Below, one piece after another: positions 21,122-27,679 of a DNA stretch of 43,418 nt. Each line of letters opens with the position of its first letter. Positions within the stretch are counted from its first letter, which is position 1. The DNA comes from Chitinophagaceae bacterium. Lineage in GTDB: Bacteria > Bacteroidota > Bacteroidia > Chitinophagales > Chitinophagaceae. The stretch lies in assembly GCA_947380605.1 (NCBI GenBank), contig CANCRO010000013.1:1-43418 (forward strand), in the 5' to 3' direction. The notes under the pieces are model-generated. The model saw only the letters and a program-made list of their open reading frames with translations, searched no databases and was not told the origin of the DNA. A program made the position numbers and the translations under genes.

Positions 21122-22012
21122 ATGAAAAATAATTTATCTAGACGTCACTTTATTCAAAATGGAATTGGTGCAAGTCTTGCACTTACTTCAATAGGTAATT
21201 TGCCCGACTTTTCGTCGATAAAACCCAAGGGCATGAGACTAGGATTAGTTACTTATCAATGGGGAAGAGACTGGGACTTGCCTACATTGATTGCTAATTG
21301 CGAAGCAACAGGATATCACGGAGTTGAATTAAGAGTGCAACATGCACATAAAGTAGAAAGTAATTTAACAGCCATTCAAAGAAAAGAAGTTAAAAAAAGA
21401 TTCAATGATAGTAGTGTTCAATGTATAGGTTATGGATCTAATTTTGAATATCATAGTCCCGACCCAGTAATACTTAAGAAAAATATTGATGAGACAAAAG
21501 AATACATAAAACTGTGTAAAGATATTGGTGCTACTGGTATTAAGATAAAACCAAATTATCTTCCACCAGAAGTATCCAAAGAAAAAACAATTACTCAAAT
21601 TGCCCAATCTTTCAATGAGTGTGGAAAATTTGCACAAGATTATGGTCAGTTAGTCAGAGTGGAAGTGCATGGTAATCTTACACAAGAAATTCCAAATATG
21701 AAGGCAATATTTGATCAGGTTACAGAACCCAATGTGAAAATTTGTTGGAATTGTAATGAACAAGATTTGTTACCCCCAGGGCTTGAACCTAATTTTAATA
21801 GTGTAAAGAAATGGTTTGGCGATACCGTTCATATTCGTGAGCTAAATGATGGAAGCTATCCCTACCAACAACTTTTTGATTTGTTTACACAGAGTGGTTA
21901 TAAAGAATGGATCCTACTAGAAGCAAGAACCGAACCAGCAGATAGGGTAGCTGCAATGAAAGAACAATTAGAATGGTTTAATAAAATGAAAGCCAACGCT
22001 AAAAAGAAATAA
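21122..22012 (+). CDS. Tat-exported sugar phosphate isomerase/epimerase-like protein
   Basis: A 296-residue TIM-barrel protein of the xylose isomerase-like family (COG1082). It starts with a Tat signal (LSRRHFIQNG, 5-14), so it is exported folded. The barrel segments LGLVTYQWGRDW, GYHGVELR, KIKPNYLPP, VEVHGN, VKICWNCN and HIRELND contain acidic and His residues in positions used by the family for divalent metal. Exported members are common in Bacteroidota and often occur with Gfo/Idh proteins like those at 3990-6387, but here they are 15 kb apart. The substrate is unknown. The gene stands alone, 186 bp after the SRAP gene and convergent with the DUF3570 operon. Confidence 0.8.
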   Translation: MKNNLSRRHFIQNGIGASLALTSIGNLPDFSSIKPKGMRLGLVTYQWGRDWDLPTLIANCEATGYHGVELRVQHAHKVESNLTAIQRKEVKKRFNDSSVQCIGYGSNFEYHSPDPVILKKNIDETKEYIKLCKDIGATGIKIKPNYLPPEVSKEKTITQIAQSFNECGKFAQDYGQLVRVEVHGNLTQEIPNMKAIFDQVTEPNVKICWNCNEQDLLPPGLEPNFNSVKKWFGDTVHIRELNDGSYPYQQLFDLFTQSGYKEWILLEARTEPADRVAAMKEQLEWFNKMKANAKKK

Positions 22013-22071: not shown

Positions 22072-23370
22072 TTATTTAAATTGAAAGGCAAACGAAATAA
22101 TATTCGAAGTCAGTTCGGTAGATTGGCTATAATGTCCATATCGAATATCTAGAGAACTCAGATTAGAATTCCAAATACCACCTGGTGGTGCAATATGAAC
22201 ACCCACTCCATAATACTGACTACTAAAGGCTGAATAAGCATAATTACTAGTATAGTACGCATCCTTAGTAGTATGTCCTTGGCAAGGTTGAAAATACTTG
22301 GCTGCAGTTTGAGTATAGGCTCTAAAAAAAGGTGACACTGAAAAGAAAGGAGTTAGTTTAACAGGTATTTCTAAACTGGCAGTTTGTGCTTTAATTCCCC
22401 AATTATCGGTAAAATATCTGTAGTAAGTACGAATAATAATATTGTCTCCCATAAAATAATTTAATCTAAAACCAATAGGAATTTTATATCTCTGGGAAGG
22501 TAATTTTTCAACGTGATCACTTGAATCAGCAAAATAAACTCTGTGAAAGGGGAGAGACAAATAGCCATTTTGAGCCACCCAATCTACTAATACACTTGCT
22601 TGCAAATTTTTATTAATTATTTGAGAATACACTAAAGATGCTGTGTGCGTATTTCTAGGCGAGGTGGGGATTTCACCAGATGAAACAACGTAACTACCTC
22701 CACCACTAGTAGAAGTAGATCTTCTTCCACTAGCAGTAGTTACTACATTGACTACTGAAGGGCCATTATTAATTACGACAGGAGCAGGTATCAATTCTGA
22801 AGGATAAATCAATTTTACTTGATCAAAATAGCTACTCACTTTTGTACTTAACTCTCCACCACTACCTATTTTATGAGAATAGTTTGCATCTATAGCAAAA
22901 GAATGATAATTATATTCAGTAGAATAGTAGGCGCCCAATCCAAAAGTGGTTCCTTTCGTATTTTCAACAGAATAGTTAATAGAAGGATAAACCCTTGTTC
23001 CACCCGTTTTAGAAGCACCCGTTTTACTAACGTATGCTGAAGAAGCTGAACTATGGTGATCAATTCCCATACTCATGTTGAAAGTATACTTTTTTCCATC
23101 AAGGTCTGTACCAGCAAATTTCAATTCTAATCCATTGGATAAATCTGTAACTGCTTCTGTTCCTACACCACCAGTTACAGCTGAATGATTTCCCTGTTGG
23201 CCGTAATAACTTGACACAATATTTATTTCATCTAATTTAAGAGGTTTGGTAGTATAGGTAGAATTTTCTTCAACAGCAGAGGTAGTTATACTATCTTTCT
23301 TTACAGACTGTGAAAAGCTACTCAATAATAATATATATAGACCGATAACGGTTAAGCATAGTTTTTTCAT
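22072..23370 (-). CDS. DUF3570 outer-membrane-type protein
   Basis: A 432-residue protein with a signal peptide (about 1-20) and a long series of alternating aromatic/polar strands ending in a phenylalanine-containing strand (IISFAFQFK). This is consistent with an outer-membrane beta-barrel. It matches the DUF3570 family by pattern and by context, being last in a thioredoxin-ApbE-DUF4266-DUF3570 operon. A conserved-looking segment SSASSAYVSKTGAS (residues 107-120) lies near the N-terminus. The TGAS in it resembles the [S/T]GA[S/T] sequence that ApbE enzymes modify with FMN, but the usual upstream Asp is absent. Function is unknown. Confidence 0.85.
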   Translation of the reverse strand: MKKLCLTVIGLYILLLSSFSQSVKKDSITTSAVEENSTYTTKPLKLDEINIVSSYYGQQGNHSAVTGGVGTEAVTDLSNGLELKFAGTDLDGKKYTFNMSMGIDHHSSASSAYVSKTGASKTGGTRVYPSINYSVENTKGTTFGLGAYYSTEYNYHSFAIDANYSHKIGSGGELSTKVSSYFDQVKLIYPSELIPAPVVINNGPSVVNVVTTASGRRSTSTSGGGSYVVSSGEIPTSPRNTHTASLVYSQIINKNLQASVLVDWVAQNGYLSLPFHRVYFADSSDHVEKLPSQRYKIPIGFRLNYFMGDNIIIRTYYRYFTDNWGIKAQTASLEIPVKLTPFFSVSPFFRAYTQTAAKYFQPCQGHTTKDAYYTSNYAYSAFSSQYYGVGVHIAPPGGIWNSNLSSLDIRYGHYSQSTELTSNIISFAFQFK

Positions 23371-23386
23371 GAACAGATTTTATTAA

Positions 23387-23611
23387 TTAATTACATCCAC
23401 AGCCTCCACCAGTTTTACCTCCATTAGCCCCTGAAGCACCTTCACGGTAGGACTGAAAATTTAATTCACTCTTCTCGATTTTTCGAATAGAGAGTCCCAT
23501 CTCAGCATCATTTAACTTACTTCTTTGAAAAGCTTTAACGGTGGTGCAAGAACTGACAGCAATAGCAAAAAAGAATGCTATGAATGCAATCCATAAAAAA
23601 TGATTTCTCAT
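23387..23611 (-). CDS. DUF4266 small lipoprotein with Gly/Cys-rich tail
   Basis: A 74-residue protein with a lipoprotein signal (lipobox VSSC, Cys22). A short helical part (DAEMGLSIRKIEKSELNFQ) follows, and the tail ends GGKTGGGCGCN. The two terminal cysteines are the most striking part and could bind metal, form a disulfide with the operon's thioredoxin, or carry a modification. It lies between apbE and the DUF3570 gene with gaps of 12 and 16 bp, so co-transcription is likely. No biochemical role for the family is known to me. Confidence 0.85.
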   Translation of the reverse strand: MRNHFLWIAFIAFFFAIAVSSCTTVKAFQRSKLNDAEMGLSIRKIEKSELNFQSYREGASGANGGKTGGGCGCN

Positions 23612-23623
23612 AATTGGTTGTTT

Positions 23624-24553
23624 TTAATTAAAACGAATATTAGTAGAATGATGTATTTTATCGTAATCATCGATGATGACTGCCTCAATATCTTTCATTT
23701 GATTAATCATATGTAAGCCAGCTTTAACACCCATAATCGTCACTGGTGTCGCCATCGCATCAGCAATTTCAGCATTTTTTGTGATTATTGTTACACTTTT
23801 TATCCCCGTTACTGGTAATCCCGTCCTAGGATCAATAGTATGGGAATACTTTTTGCCATCAATCAGTATAAACTTCTCATAATTTCCAGAGGTGGCTACT
23901 GCCAAACCTGATATCTTTAAAAATGAAAACACCTCGCCTAAAACATTTGGATTAGCAATCCCAACGGTCCATTCTTCACCACTAGGTTGTAAACCCCATG
24001 TAGTAAGGTCACCAGAAGCATTTACAATTCCACTGGTGATACCTAGCTCCTGCATAATATTTTTGGCCATTTCTGCAGCATACCCTTTTCCAATTCCTCC
24101 AAAACCTATTCTCATTCCTTTTTCACTTAAAAAGACAGTTGACTGCGCTCTATCTAAAACAATATTTCGGTAATTGATTAAGCGAACCATTTCTTTTGCA
24201 GTTTCTTTGTCTGGCAAAGACTTCATTTGAGTATCAAAATTCCAAAGACCTTTATCAATAGAACCATAAGTAATATCAAAGGCACCTTGAGTGATGGAGG
24301 AAATCCTTATCGACCTTTCAATTAAATTAAATATCTCTTCACTTACTTTTACTGGCTTAATTCCTGCATTGCGATTGATTAAATTCGTTTCACTACTATC
24401 ATGAAAAGTAGTCAATAGTTTTTCAATCCGTTTAATTTCTTCAATACCTGCATGGATAGAACGATTCGCACTTTGTTCATCATCAGCTACTGCACTAATT
24501 TCAAACTGATTACCCATCAATAAGGTAGCCACCTTGACTATTTTATTTTTCAT
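23624..24553 (-). CDS. apbE: FAD:protein FMN transferase without signal peptide
   Basis: A 309-residue ApbE-family enzyme that transfers FMN from FAD to a Ser or Thr of a target protein. Family motifs are present: GGIGKGYAAE, NASGDLTTWG, HTIDPRTGLP and IADAMATP with the metal-binding residues. ApbE proteins of Gram-negatives are usually periplasmic lipoproteins. This one begins MKNKIVKVATLLMGNQFE with no hydrophobic segment, and a stop codon at 24575-24577 in the same frame rules out a longer start. It therefore seems cytoplasmic, although its three operon partners are exported. The target may be DUF3570 or DUF4266 or a protein encoded elsewhere. Confidence 0.92.
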   Translation of the reverse strand: MKNKIVKVATLLMGNQFEISAVADDEQSANRSIHAGIEEIKRIEKLLTTFHDSSETNLINRNAGIKPVKVSEEIFNLIERSIRISSITQGAFDITYGSIDKGLWNFDTQMKSLPDKETAKEMVRLINYRNIVLDRAQSTVFLSEKGMRIGFGGIGKGYAAEMAKNIMQELGITSGIVNASGDLTTWGLQPSGEEWTVGIANPNVLGEVFSFLKISGLAVATSGNYEKFILIDGKKYSHTIDPRTGLPVTGIKSVTIITKNAEIADAMATPVTIMGVKAGLHMINQMKDIEAVIIDDYDKIHHSTNIRFN

Positions 24554-24561
24554 CGAAGAAA

Positions 24562-25017
24562 TTATTGAGCATGATCAATAACCCATTTAATTTCATCAAC
24601 AAACTCAGTAGTGGAAACCTTAGGATATCCTTCCCATTGTTTTAAAATTTTACCATTCTCGGAGAGTAAGACGGTCAAAGGAAAAATACCTTGTGAATTA
24701 TACCTTTCAGCAATTCCATCATTTATTTTCTGTTGTGCAGCTGGTAATTGATTTTTTTTAAGACGGGGAAAATCAGCATTCACCATCACCAAACTTTTGG
24801 TGGCATAGGTCTGAAATATTTCATTTTCTAAAATTTCCTTGTGGAGTCTTATACATGGACCACACCAATCGGATCCTGAAAAATTCAATAAAATATACTT
24901 ATGTTCTTTTTGAGCTATTTTTTTAGCTTCTTCTAAATTAGCATACCATTTTATTACCGAAAAGGACATGCAAAAAAATCCTATTAAAACAAGTGTTGAT
25001 AATAATTTTATTTTCAT
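24562..25017 (-). CDS. Periplasmic thioredoxin-like protein
   Basis: A 151-residue exported thioredoxin-fold protein with a signal peptide or anchor (MKIKLLSTLVLIGFFCMSFS) and the active site WCGPC within FSGSDWCGPC. A cis-Pro region is present in GIFPLTVLLSENG. It should reduce or form disulfides in the periplasm. A longer reading from a TTG at 25041 is possible, but that codon is part of a -7-like sequence (AATATTTG) and the ATG at 25017 gives a clean signal peptide, so the latter was chosen. It is the first gene of the operon with apbE, DUF4266 and DUF3570. The Cys-rich DUF4266 tail is an obvious candidate substrate. Confidence 0.88.
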   Translation of the reverse strand: MKIKLLSTLVLIGFFCMSFSVIKWYANLEEAKKIAQKEHKYILLNFSGSDWCGPCIRLHKEILENEIFQTYATKSLVMVNADFPRLKKNQLPAAQQKINDGIAERYNSQGIFPLTVLLSENGKILKQWEGYPKVSTTEFVDEIKWVIDHAQ

Positions 25018-25192
25018 GGGTAAGTGTTTTAGAGGTATCAAATATTTAAAATAATTTGCTATTACGATTAATTGGAGAAGTATAAAAAGACTAAATTTTT
25101 ATTAACTAAAGATTAAATAATTTATTGATGAATATAAAATTACTTAATTGCTTGTTAACCTAGCGTTAAAGAGAAAAGATTGATAAGTACCT

Positions 25193-27679
25193 TTAAAATT
25201 TAAGTTTCAAAATTTTCCATCCCTCCATCCATACCGTACTAACCAAAGCAACTATTACGCAAACCGACAAGTCATTTAGGCTCAGGGGAATCAATTGAAA
25301 CAAGTTACTGATAAATGAGCTATTCAATATTAAAAATATCAATAATAAGATAATGCCAATTATCAAGGGAACCAAATTGTTTTGATAACGAAGAGTTGTA
25401 ATCAATGTATGTTGAAAAGACCTATTAATGAGTGTAAGAAATATGTTACTGAATAAAAGTGTGATAAAAATAATTGTTCTAACCAACCATTCATTTTCCC
25501 CTTGTGACATATAATAATAACCAATACCTAAACAACCTGCGGTAATCATTAGGCCCTGAAAAATACTAATCGATAATTGTTTAAAAGTCAAAAAGGTAGC
25601 GCTCATTTTTCTTGGTGGACGAAGCATGGTAGCCTTTTCCATGGGTTCATTTTCATACAAAATAGAACAAGTAGGCCCCATGATTAGTTCCAAGAAAATC
25701 ACATGAACAGGCGAAAAAATATCTGCGAATTGCCAACCGAGTAATAGGGGGAGGGTTACAATCAATAGGATAGGAATATGAATGGATACAATGTATTGGA
25801 TGGCTTTTTTTAAATTGTCATATATTTTTCTACCCAAGGCAACCGCCTCTGTCATATGGGATAAATCGTCATCAGTTATAATCAGTGCTGCAGCTGATTT
25901 AGCAACTTCACTTCCGCGATCACCCATGGCAATTCCAATATGTGCCGCTTTTAAAGCAGGTCCATCATTCACACCATCACCAGTCATCGCCACAATCTCT
26001 CCATTTGCTTTCAATGCTTCGATTACTTTAAGTTTTGCTTCTGGAAACATCCTTGAATAAATATTTACCTGATTAACTTTCTTTTGAAGCGCTTCTTTAC
26101 TAATCGATAAAATATCTTGACCAGTAAGCACTTCATTATTATGAGCTAATTTAATTTGTCGTGCAATCGCTAAAGCAGTCTCTGGATAATCTCCAGTAAT
26201 CATTTTAACTGCAATACCTGCAGCATTAAATGTTTGAATAGTTTGCTCGATATTTTCTTTAGGAGGGTCCTGAAAAGCAATTAATCCTAAAAAGTCCAAA
26301 ACAAAATCGTGCTGCGAGGGTGGCCATACTGATTGATTCCATAAGGATTTGCCCACTCCCAAAACTCGATAGCCCAATTGGGCATATGCATGAGATTGAT
26401 TTTCTATTTTCTTAATATTTTCTTCCGATAAATTACATTGATTTAAAATGGCTTCCGGAGCACCCTTTGCTGCGATGATCACTTGCTCATTGATGTCTTT
26501 AAAAATATGAGTCATCATGGGTGGTTTTCCTCCAATAGGATATTCATGAACTTGCTGAAATCGATTTCTTTTATCTTCAATAGTATTATTTTGATACAGT
26601 GAATGAATAGCTAATTCCATTGGATCAAATGGATTTGTTTCACTACTCCACATAGCATATTCAATTAATTCATTAGGCAGAGAAGTAGGTTGTTTTACTT
26701 CTAGGGAAACATCATTTATAAAATCGTAAAGGAATGCGATACTCATTTTGTTTTGAGTCAGCGTACCTGTTTTGTCAACACAAATTACCGTTGCAGAACC
26801 CAATGTTTCAACATATTGAGGTTGCTTTACAATTATTTTATTGCTTAACAATCGAAAGGCGCCCAATGCTTGAAAAGTGCTAAATGCCACTGGAATTTCT
26901 TCTGGAAGAATACTCATGGCTAATGTAAGTCCTTGTAAAAAGGATTGAATTAAATTACCAGATTGATAATAATTAAAACCTACTACCATTAAAAAGGCAA
27001 TCGCTCCAACCCAAACCATATTGCTAACGAATGAACGAATTTGATTTTGCAGAGGCGTTTTTACAATAGTAATTTCTCTCATTGATCGGCCAATATTTCC
27101 GAATTGGGTTTGTAATCCTACTGCAGAAACTTGTATGGTTGCACTTCCACTCGTAACAAGGGTACCTTTATAAACCTTCGTTTGGTTTTCAGCCGTTTTA
27201 TGAACTACAAAAGATTCACCTGTTAAGATAGATTCATTGAGAGAAAAATCGTTTGCAGCTATAATAATTCCATCTGCTGCTACCACATCACCTTCGGCTA
27301 AAAGTAACCTATCATTTACAACGATTTGCTCTGAGGCGATTAATAAATTTAGTCCATTGCGTATTACTTTAGCAGATGGAGCTGATAGTTTTTTTAAAGC
27401 TAAAACAGCATTTTTACTTCTGAACTCTTGAAAAATCGAAATGCCTGCTACAATAAAGATTGCTACTAACATGATGACTCCTTCCTTAAATTGTCCAACA
27501 GCAAAATAGATAATACCGGCTGCTAAAAGCAGCATGAACATAGGTTCTAAAACTACTTCCTTTAGTACATTTATTAGTACACGATCTTCCTGCAACGCAA
27601 GACTATTAATACCAAAATTTTTCCTAGAAATAATCACCTCTTCATCAGTCAATCCCATCAAAGCATTTTCATTATCCAT
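25193..27679 (-). CDS. P-type cation-transporting ATPase
   Basis: An 828-residue ion pump of the P2 type. The actuator loop TGES is at 153-156, the phosphorylated Asp is D302 in CVDKTGTLTQ, and the hinge is MTGDGVNDGPAL. In the ion-binding helix M4 the sequence is PEEIPV (259-264) instead of the PEGLPA of SERCA-type Ca2+ pumps. This marks a bacterial subgroup whose ion is not settled. About ten membrane helices are present, with four in the C-terminal part. There are no N-terminal heavy-metal domains, so a copper or zinc pump is unlikely; Ca2+, Mg2+ or another light cation is more plausible. The gene appears monocistronic. Confidence 0.88.
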   Translation of the reverse strand: MDNENALMGLTDEEVIISRKNFGINSLALQEDRVLINVLKEVVLEPMFMLLLAAGIIYFAVGQFKEGVIMLVAIFIVAGISIFQEFRSKNAVLALKKLSAPSAKVIRNGLNLLIASEQIVVNDRLLLAEGDVVAADGIIIAANDFSLNESILTGESFVVHKTAENQTKVYKGTLVTSGSATIQVSAVGLQTQFGNIGRSMREITIVKTPLQNQIRSFVSNMVWVGAIAFLMVVGFNYYQSGNLIQSFLQGLTLAMSILPEEIPVAFSTFQALGAFRLLSNKIIVKQPQYVETLGSATVICVDKTGTLTQNKMSIAFLYDFINDVSLEVKQPTSLPNELIEYAMWSSETNPFDPMELAIHSLYQNNTIEDKRNRFQQVHEYPIGGKPPMMTHIFKDINEQVIIAAKGAPEAILNQCNLSEENIKKIENQSHAYAQLGYRVLGVGKSLWNQSVWPPSQHDFVLDFLGLIAFQDPPKENIEQTIQTFNAAGIAVKMITGDYPETALAIARQIKLAHNNEVLTGQDILSISKEALQKKVNQVNIYSRMFPEAKLKVIEALKANGEIVAMTGDGVNDGPALKAAHIGIAMGDRGSEVAKSAAALIITDDDLSHMTEAVALGRKIYDNLKKAIQYIVSIHIPILLIVTLPLLLGWQFADIFSPVHVIFLELIMGPTCSILYENEPMEKATMLRPPRKMSATFLTFKQLSISIFQGLMITAGCLGIGYYYMSQGENEWLVRTIIFITLLFSNIFLTLINRSFQHTLITTLRYQNNLVPLIIGIILLLIFLILNSSFISNLFQLIPLSLNDLSVCVIVALVSTVWMEGWKILKLKF

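Follow-up and report, generated by a model that had tools for sequence, protein, structure and literature searches.

The DNA analysed here (hereafter the window) is a contig of 43,418 nucleotides from a Chitinophagaceae bacterium, and our subject is a group of four minus-strand open reading frames (ORFs) within it, which span positions 25017 to 22072 and encode a thioredoxin, an ApbE-type flavin mononucleotide (FMN) transferase, a DUF4266 protein and a DUF3570 protein, in this order. An earlier inspection of the bare letters (the sequence-only reading) had proposed a leftward four-gene operon with gaps of 8, 12 and 16 bp, which the re-checked ORF positions confirmed. The first gene (24562..25017) encodes a thioredoxin-like protein of 151 residues (Thioredoxin_7, PF13899, 47.5 bits) with a CGPC active site and a signal peptide, as read from the sequence; an alternative TTG start is possible at 25041. 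The second (23624..24553) encodes the FMN transferase (309 residues; PF02424, 274.5 bits), which has no signal peptide. The third product, a putative small lipoprotein (23387..23611, 74 residues; PF14086, 63.6 bits), displays a lipobox-like VSSC (23546..23557) with a cysteine, Cys22, that is invariant among 14 aligned members, and its exact C-terminus is the conserved tail GGGCGCN (23390..23410) with a cysteine-X-cysteine (CXC) thiol pair. The last gene (22072..23370) encodes a DUF3570 protein of 432 residues (PF12094, 80.7 bits) combining a signal peptide with an outer-membrane beta-barrel predicted by modelling (see below). All four Pfam scores are above the family cut-offs; NCBIfam gave sub-cut-off matches only (to the thioredoxin and ApbE), and the Pfam search revealed no cytochrome family match in any of the four proteins.

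Flavinylation clusters of the DUF3570 type were described by Meheust et al. in 2021 (eLife; PMC8238504), the single paper that text searches for either DUF family brought up in the literature covered. The available text of that report lists 285 DsbD-linked clusters (227 of them contain DUF3570, 221 contain DUF4266 and 183 contain a PF13899 thioredoxin) and 316 more that combine ApbE, DUF3570, thioredoxin and DUF4266 without DsbD. The same text describes that co-expression of the Chlorobium luteolum DUF3570 with its cognate ApbE placed flavin on DUF3570 at two [S/T]GA[S/T] sites, flavin being lost only when both motif serines were changed, this being the one DUF3570 shown there to carry covalent FMN; it also points out the CXC tail of DUF4266 and proposes DsbD as the electron donor of the system. 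The module was therefore not uncharacterised, as the sequence-only reading had called it, and the assembly line imagined there for the display of a separate factor is superfluous, the known flavin carrier being the DUF3570 barrel itself. Its suggestion of a flavinylation or redox module at the outer membrane remains a fair one, given the predicted barrel. A DsbD match (PF02683) is found neither in the operon cluster nor elsewhere in the window, the single one of this genome being located on another contig (G000:C15). Since the DsbD of this genome is encoded elsewhere and 316 such clusters have been published, we file the operon with the DsbD-less clusters: it is one more member, of the DsbD-less sort, of the described system.

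As far as our literature searches show, two features reported below are new: the absence of a signal peptide from the dedicated ApbE, and the position of the predicted flavin loop, which in the barrel model falls at the conserved outer end. The former point is not raised in the available text of PMC8238504, and the word "barrel" appears nowhere in its main text. Text searches joining ApbE flavinylation, outer membrane and barrel gave no match in the literature covered (preprints were outside the scope), and a search that joined flavinylation with thioredoxin and DsbD led back to PMC8238504. According to the accessible part of a study by Huang et al. 2024 (PMC11334425), which does not name DUF3570, the confirmed flavinylation substrates include outer-membrane ones, so the location of DUF3570 may already be known to that group.

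The association of the four families was assessed in 296 genomes of the phylum, where DUF4266 was found in 83, DUF3570 in 86 and ApbE in 192. All 83 genomes with DUF4266 also carry DUF3570 (the overlap was compared by eye), and ApbE is present in 83 of the 86 genomes with DUF3570 (the exceptions are G181, G213 and G276); the genomes are related, and Fisher p values for such co-occurrence are not probabilities of independent events. Gene neighborhoods were compared in 60 loci from 55 of these genomes (the phylum loci), comprising 40 DUF4266 loci from outside the green sulfur bacteria (window genome excluded) and 20 chosen green-sulfur loci. DUF4266 is located less than 200 bp from DUF3570 in 56 of them, ApbE less than 4 kb away in 56, and a thioredoxin less than 4 kb away in 50 (thioredoxin counts are from a recount with CxxC thioredoxins). 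A second set, the best 80 of at least 585 loci from a DUF3570 alignment search (the named loci), gave 76, 70 and 63, respectively, by the same distance criteria, with all three partners in 57; the two sets overlap and are not independent (e.g. L085 and L219 have contigs of equal length and share the same ApbE start). The survey that the sequence-only reading had called for thus finds the four families together in 48 of the 60 phylum loci, which is not chance.

Some departures from the simple four-gene arrangement were observed. The window genome has a second DUF4266-DUF3570 pair without an adjoining ApbE on another contig (L008 5573-7571, contig C5), which is preceded by a Rieske protein and in which the DUF4266 end, SYREGASGANGGKTGGGCGCN, is identical to that of the window copy. 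A green-sulfur cluster (L117 4257-12534) contains four DUF3570 and two DUF4266 genes with a single ApbE, and nine DUF3570 matches, which include fragments of a single gene, were found in genome G197. In a plasmid collection, the window DUF3570 matched two Hymenobacter plasmids, and no match was found there for a green-sulfur DUF3570.

Enzymes of the ApbE family are usually exported, with a signal peptide or a lipidation signal (as stated in the available text of PMC12052999). The window ApbE lacks such a signal, as only 13 residues are present ahead of the conserved LLM|GN motif and the entire stop-to-stop frame has a length of 316, a feature that had gone unremarked in the sequence-only reading. 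Scoring by a hydrophobicity rule combined with inspection by eye classified the 57 linked ApbEs (56 from phylum loci plus that of the window) as 39 signal-less, 17 with a hydrophobic signal and one fusion. The signal-less state was found in 18 of 18 cases among the green sulfur bacteria and in 21 of 39 elsewhere, and in all 70 linked ApbEs of the named loci; L126 (phylum) and L232 (named) passed the cut only via an upstream frame extension and were scored as signal-less. Most ApbE stop-to-stop frames are too short to accommodate a signal. The 43 unlinked ApbEs analyzed (the two further ones of the window genome, 40 from other loci and one from L224, which is encoded on the other strand, some 1.5 kb away from a DUF3570, and was scored as unlinked) all pass the hydrophobicity cut, L164 narrowly. 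Since these controls belong mostly to other ApbE subfamilies, the correspondence between signal loss and DUF3570 linkage is an association, not proof. In a quick tree built from 108 ApbEs, two clades are signal-less throughout: the linked enzymes of green sulfur bacteria (18 rows) and a group of 29 Bacteroidia rows that includes the window.

The window genome encodes two further ApbEs with hydrophobic N-termini, one of which is fused to DUF2271, its own target domain; at this locus (L010 5419-7535) the fusion is followed by a PepSY_TM-like protein. FMN_bind was not found in the window genome. The presence of the two additional enzymes is consistent with a scheme in which the signal-less ApbE would serve a cytosolic protein and another, exported ApbE would flavinylate DUF3570, the more so as some ApbEs are known to act inside the cytosol on proteins that reside there, e.g. 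the Klebsiella fumarate reductase (available text of PMC12052999). We nevertheless regard this scheme as very improbable, since one of the two spare enzymes is already provided with a target and since in many genomes no exported ApbE is at hand. For example, genomes G012, G017 and G033 have one signal-less ApbE each and no FMN_bind, and the same combination, a signal-less ApbE only and no FMN_bind, is observed in 45 of the 46 green-sulfur genomes that have both DUF3570 and ApbE; no other candidate enzyme for DUF3570 turned up in these genomes, where DUF2271 was not part of the search.

The latter comparison is based on family f17, identified as green sulfur bacteria by the FMO antenna protein in 19 of 19 genomes checked. 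DUF3570 is present in 49 f17 genomes, 46 of which have ApbE, in 50 copies; all but one of these are signal-less (L286, which is the L126 gene again, was scored as before). ApbE and DUF3570 are on separate contigs in a few of the assemblies (e.g. G044, G098, G256 and G295). FMN_bind was detected in a single genome out of the 49 (none of the 12 first searched and one of the remaining 37). In this genome, G075, a lipoprotein-type ApbE is located about 1.4 kb from FMN_bind and a signal-less ApbE is located beside DUF3570, 450 kb apart. The exception thus provides a within-genome contrast in favor of flavinylation of DUF3570 by the signal-less enzyme, as each type of substrate is accompanied by its own type of ApbE. 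Among the 11 f17 genomes with ApbE and without DUF3570, nine combine FMN_bind with an ApbE that bears a lipoprotein signal.

Both flavinylation motifs of the C. luteolum type appear to align in the window DUF3570, as judged from an alignment of 68 family members (window included). The first predicted motif, DHHSSAS (23041..23061), would be flavinylated at Ser110, and the second, VSKTGAS (23011..23031), which contains the published pattern (PMC8238504, available text) as TGAS at residues 117-120, at Ser120. At the first site, Ala109 and Ser110 are kept in 97% of the aligned proteins, the motif being mostly [ST]SAS in Bacteroidia rows and SGAS or TGAS in green-sulfur rows.

The AlphaFold2 prediction for the window DUF3570 (66 relatives) is an all-strand model with a mean predicted local distance difference test score (pLDDT) of 89 and a predicted template modeling score of 0.83. 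It contains 16 strands (DSSP, broken strands merged by hand), both termini being on one side, and the loops have 9, 17, 2, 49, 29, 4, 27 and 3 residues on one side versus 5, 5, 3, 2, 3, 2 and 10 on the other. The 50 structural neighbors listed (Z from 21.2 to 15.3) are all outer-membrane barrels, with alignments that span almost the full chain; they include a BamA model (21.2), the polysaccharide outer-membrane secretin 4y25 (20.4), PelBC (19.9), cellulose synthase subunit C (18.7), and OmpG and porins (about 15 to 17). The window DUF3570 is thus a predicted outer-membrane beta-barrel with an even number of strands, a topology that rests on strand counting and end-to-end structural alignments, without coordinates. 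The matches are generic outer-membrane barrels, and an assignment of function from them was set aside; a DUF3570 profile search against PDB sequences gave no match at E values up to 1.

In outer-membrane barrels the first strand starts, as a rule, in the periplasm, which would place the long loops (9, 17, 49, 29 and 27 residues) outside and the turns of 2-10 residues inside. The flavin loop (mature residues 86-102 in the model), which joins strands 3 and 4, would then be on the outer side, and both predicted flavin serines would be in the outer half. Conservation points to the same end of the barrel: at a conservation threshold of at least 95% across the 68 proteins, 18 of the 249 outer-half positions qualify and 0 of the 141 inner-half positions (Fisher p 3e-4), and at a threshold of at least 90% there are 21 outer and 3 inner positions.

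The tail of DUF4266 is highly uniform, with CGC within the last six residues in 140 of 140 ORFs, 135 of which end in CGCN. The AlphaFold2 model of DUF4266, a low-confidence helix with a loose tail, looks like it would suit a tethered thiol shuttle or relay. DUF4266 was also considered as a flavinylation target, which is thought unlikely, as [ST]GA[ST] is absent in 139 of the 140 ORFs (L232 is the exception). A looser likeness to a flavinylation site is seen in 58 of the 140, and the window tail has EGAS.

From sequence and modeling together, we are somewhat inclined to regard the operon as encoding an outer-membrane outlet for electrons that works through flavins, with ApbE flavinylating DUF3570 prior to its export. 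A fuller version, to which we give a little less than even credence, is that the signal-less ApbE acts on the unfolded precursor in the cytosol and that this precursor passes through Sec and the barrel assembly machinery (BAM) with its FMN in place, as part of a haem-free flavin-thiol wire of Bacteroidota and green sulfur bacteria. ApbE would attach FMN to two serines of one DUF3570 loop before the precursor has folded; the cytosol is the most likely site, given that the window ApbE is devoid of an export signal. A loop positioned beyond the outer membrane would be accessible to ApbE only before the barrel folds, and flavinylation in the cytosol, where FAD (flavin adenine dinucleotide) is made, would explain the lost signal of ApbE; a folded periplasmic FMN_bind domain, on the other hand, would need an exported ApbE. 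The flavinylated DUF3570 need not be folded, since in the E. coli co-expression most of the protein was found in the pellet of lysed cells (PMC8238504, available text). Export of an FMN-bearing chain appears possible, as a SecY lumen opening to as much as 2.4 nm is reported for rigid-tailed substrates (available text of the review PMC6028853). The precursor would be exported by Sec and folded by BAM, leaving the flavins at the outer end of the barrel. A DsbD-type protein encoded elsewhere in the genome would reduce the exported thioredoxin, which would pass electrons to the CXC tail of lipid-anchored DUF4266, from which they would proceed to the barrel flavins and to a surface acceptor, perhaps ferric iron or another metal. 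The role of the flavin barrel is probably outward electron transfer; where DUF3570 is flavinylated, in which sequence and direction the electrons move, and what accepts them are what we infer.

Several observations weigh against the proposed pathway. The signal-peptide calls are based on the hydrophobicity rule and visual inspection rather than on a trained predictor. The signal-less state needs only three changes on the 108-ApbE tree, and an independent-pairs test proved powerless (median p 1; three pairs on starred branches). G040 and G209, the remaining two of the 11 f17 genomes with ApbE and without DUF3570, carry a signal-less ApbE, and neither DUF3570 nor FMN_bind was found in them. The first motif of the window DUF3570 is SSAS rather than SGAS, and three loci (L081, L082 and L090) have neither motif in the searched form. 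The flavin loop is poorly modeled (block-mean pLDDT 78 and 55), and a comparison of outer and inner conservation restricted to strands is not significant (p 0.053). DUF4266 is without a confident fold, and the electron path from DUF4266 across the barrel to the flavins at its outer end is unexplained; a tail threaded into the barrel lumen is our guess. Finally, 17 of the 57 linked ApbEs keep their own signal peptide, and in L075 (6003-7433) ApbE and an exported thioredoxin form a single in-frame fusion, just upstream of DUF4266-DUF3570. As a separate observation on G209 and G040, their signal-less ApbE, together with DsbD, is encoded beside an RTX-repeat protein (L278 3842-7316 and L279 4678-7383, respectively), which in L278 contains ISGAT, resembling a flavinylation site.

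The 17 signal-bearing enzymes and the L075 fusion suggest that periplasmic flavinylation exists in the family. They also lend support to a scheme in which even the signal-less ApbE would work in the periplasm, reached by another export route or in company with the thioredoxin, with flavinylation taking place between Sec and BAM. The ApbE and thioredoxin genes are often directly adjacent or overlapping, with a shared stretch of about 14 nucleotides in many pairs, as might be expected if the two proteins traveled together. However, the signal-less ApbE of green sulfur bacteria is encoded downstream of DUF3570 or DUF4266 rather than of the thioredoxin, and in L180-L182 it precedes the thioredoxin; such differing gene orders indicate that piggy-backing of ApbE on the thioredoxin is not general. 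Given also that most stop-to-stop frames have no room for a signal, we find the periplasmic scheme rather unlikely. A programmed frameshift yielding an exported fusion of thioredoxin and ApbE, which the frequent overlaps had brought to mind, was set aside, as the gap in the window is 8 bp and the gene order differs in the green sulfur bacteria and in L180-L182.

The genomic surroundings were examined in 142 clustered loci with no background control, and no enrichment is claimed (a single member of each of the DsbD, VIT1, Rieske and cytochrome b561 groups was checked by Pfam; resistance-nodulation-division (RND) and two-component names were read from the sequence). The families encountered are DsbD (18 loci), VIT1 (16), Rieske (15), cytochrome b561 (15), heavy-metal-RND-like ORFs (20, some of them incomplete) and P-type ATPases (9 with that of the window counted, some being fragmentary or far), which point to redox and metal handling; VIT1 is also named in 25 clusters in the available text of PMC8238504. 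In the window itself, a P-type cation ATPase (25193-27679, minus strand) is located upstream of the operon, with related ORFs in eight other DUF3570 loci, and a gene running toward the end of the operon (21122-22012) encodes a TIM-barrel protein. In eight loci (L080, L084, L089, L096, L101, L105, L230 and L234) a response-regulator-like ORF starts at most about 35 bp from the DUF3570 end, or overlaps it, and is followed by a sensor-kinase-like ORF, which suggests, at the level of sequence, a dedicated two-component regulator.

The metal-related neighbors (VIT1 and the RND-like ORFs) and the very strong conservation of the DUF4266 tail would agree with a view of DUF4266 as the actual product of the operon, with its CXC pair kept reduced by the thioredoxin and the barrel serving to display or export it, for example for metal binding; the EGAS of the window tail and the looser pattern in other members would also be compatible with a flavin on DUF4266. 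This view appears distinctly improbable to us. It leaves the flavinylated serines of DUF3570 unexplained, the strict [ST]GA[ST] pattern is found in one DUF4266 ORF out of 140, and the conserved end of the barrel is the outer one, which fits a cofactor site better than an export gate.

The data of this analysis agree with either direction of electron flow. Rieske proteins (in 13 of the 142 loci within 2 kb and on the same strand) and cytochrome b561 would be appropriate partners in a system running inward, where the barrel flavins would oxidize Fe(II) or thiols outside the cell and the thioredoxin or a quinone-linked partner would accept the electrons. We consider this direction unlikely, as DsbD, which sends electrons outward, has its gene close to DUF3570 in 17 of the 20 green-sulfur phylum loci and as receipt of electrons from DsbD is proposed in PMC8238504 (available text).

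If the proposed outlet indeed operates with a cytosolic ApbE, flavinylation of exported proteins would not always be extracytosolic, and surveys that require an exported ApbE could miss or misplace it. If its flavins indeed reside at the outer end of the barrel, the operon would represent a haem-free electron route across the outer membrane. The green sulfur bacteria provide a clean contrast, G075 pairing each type of substrate with its own type of ApbE.

Porin-cytochrome conduits of the MtrCAB type likewise conduct electrons to the cell surface by way of a barrel in the outer membrane. They contain haems, in contrast to the covalent flavins and thiols of the proposed flavin barrel, and no relation between the two is shown. 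In mammalian thioredoxin reductase, a mobile Gly-Cys-Sec-Gly tail shuttles electrons between flavin and thioredoxin; DUF4266, which recalls this tail, is a separate lipoprotein, and no homology is claimed. The closest relatives of the window operon are the clusters of PMC8238504 (available text), with which it shares the same four families, an ApbE gene adjoining DUF3570, and the presence of a thioredoxin and DUF4266; unlike the DsbD-linked ones among them, it has no neighboring DsbD. As for its ApbE, the nearest parallel is the Klebsiella enzyme for the soluble fumarate reductase (PMC12052999, available text), also signal-less, which attaches FMN in the cytosol. The Klebsiella target, however, stays in the cytosol, whereas the apparent target of the window operon is exported to the outer membrane.

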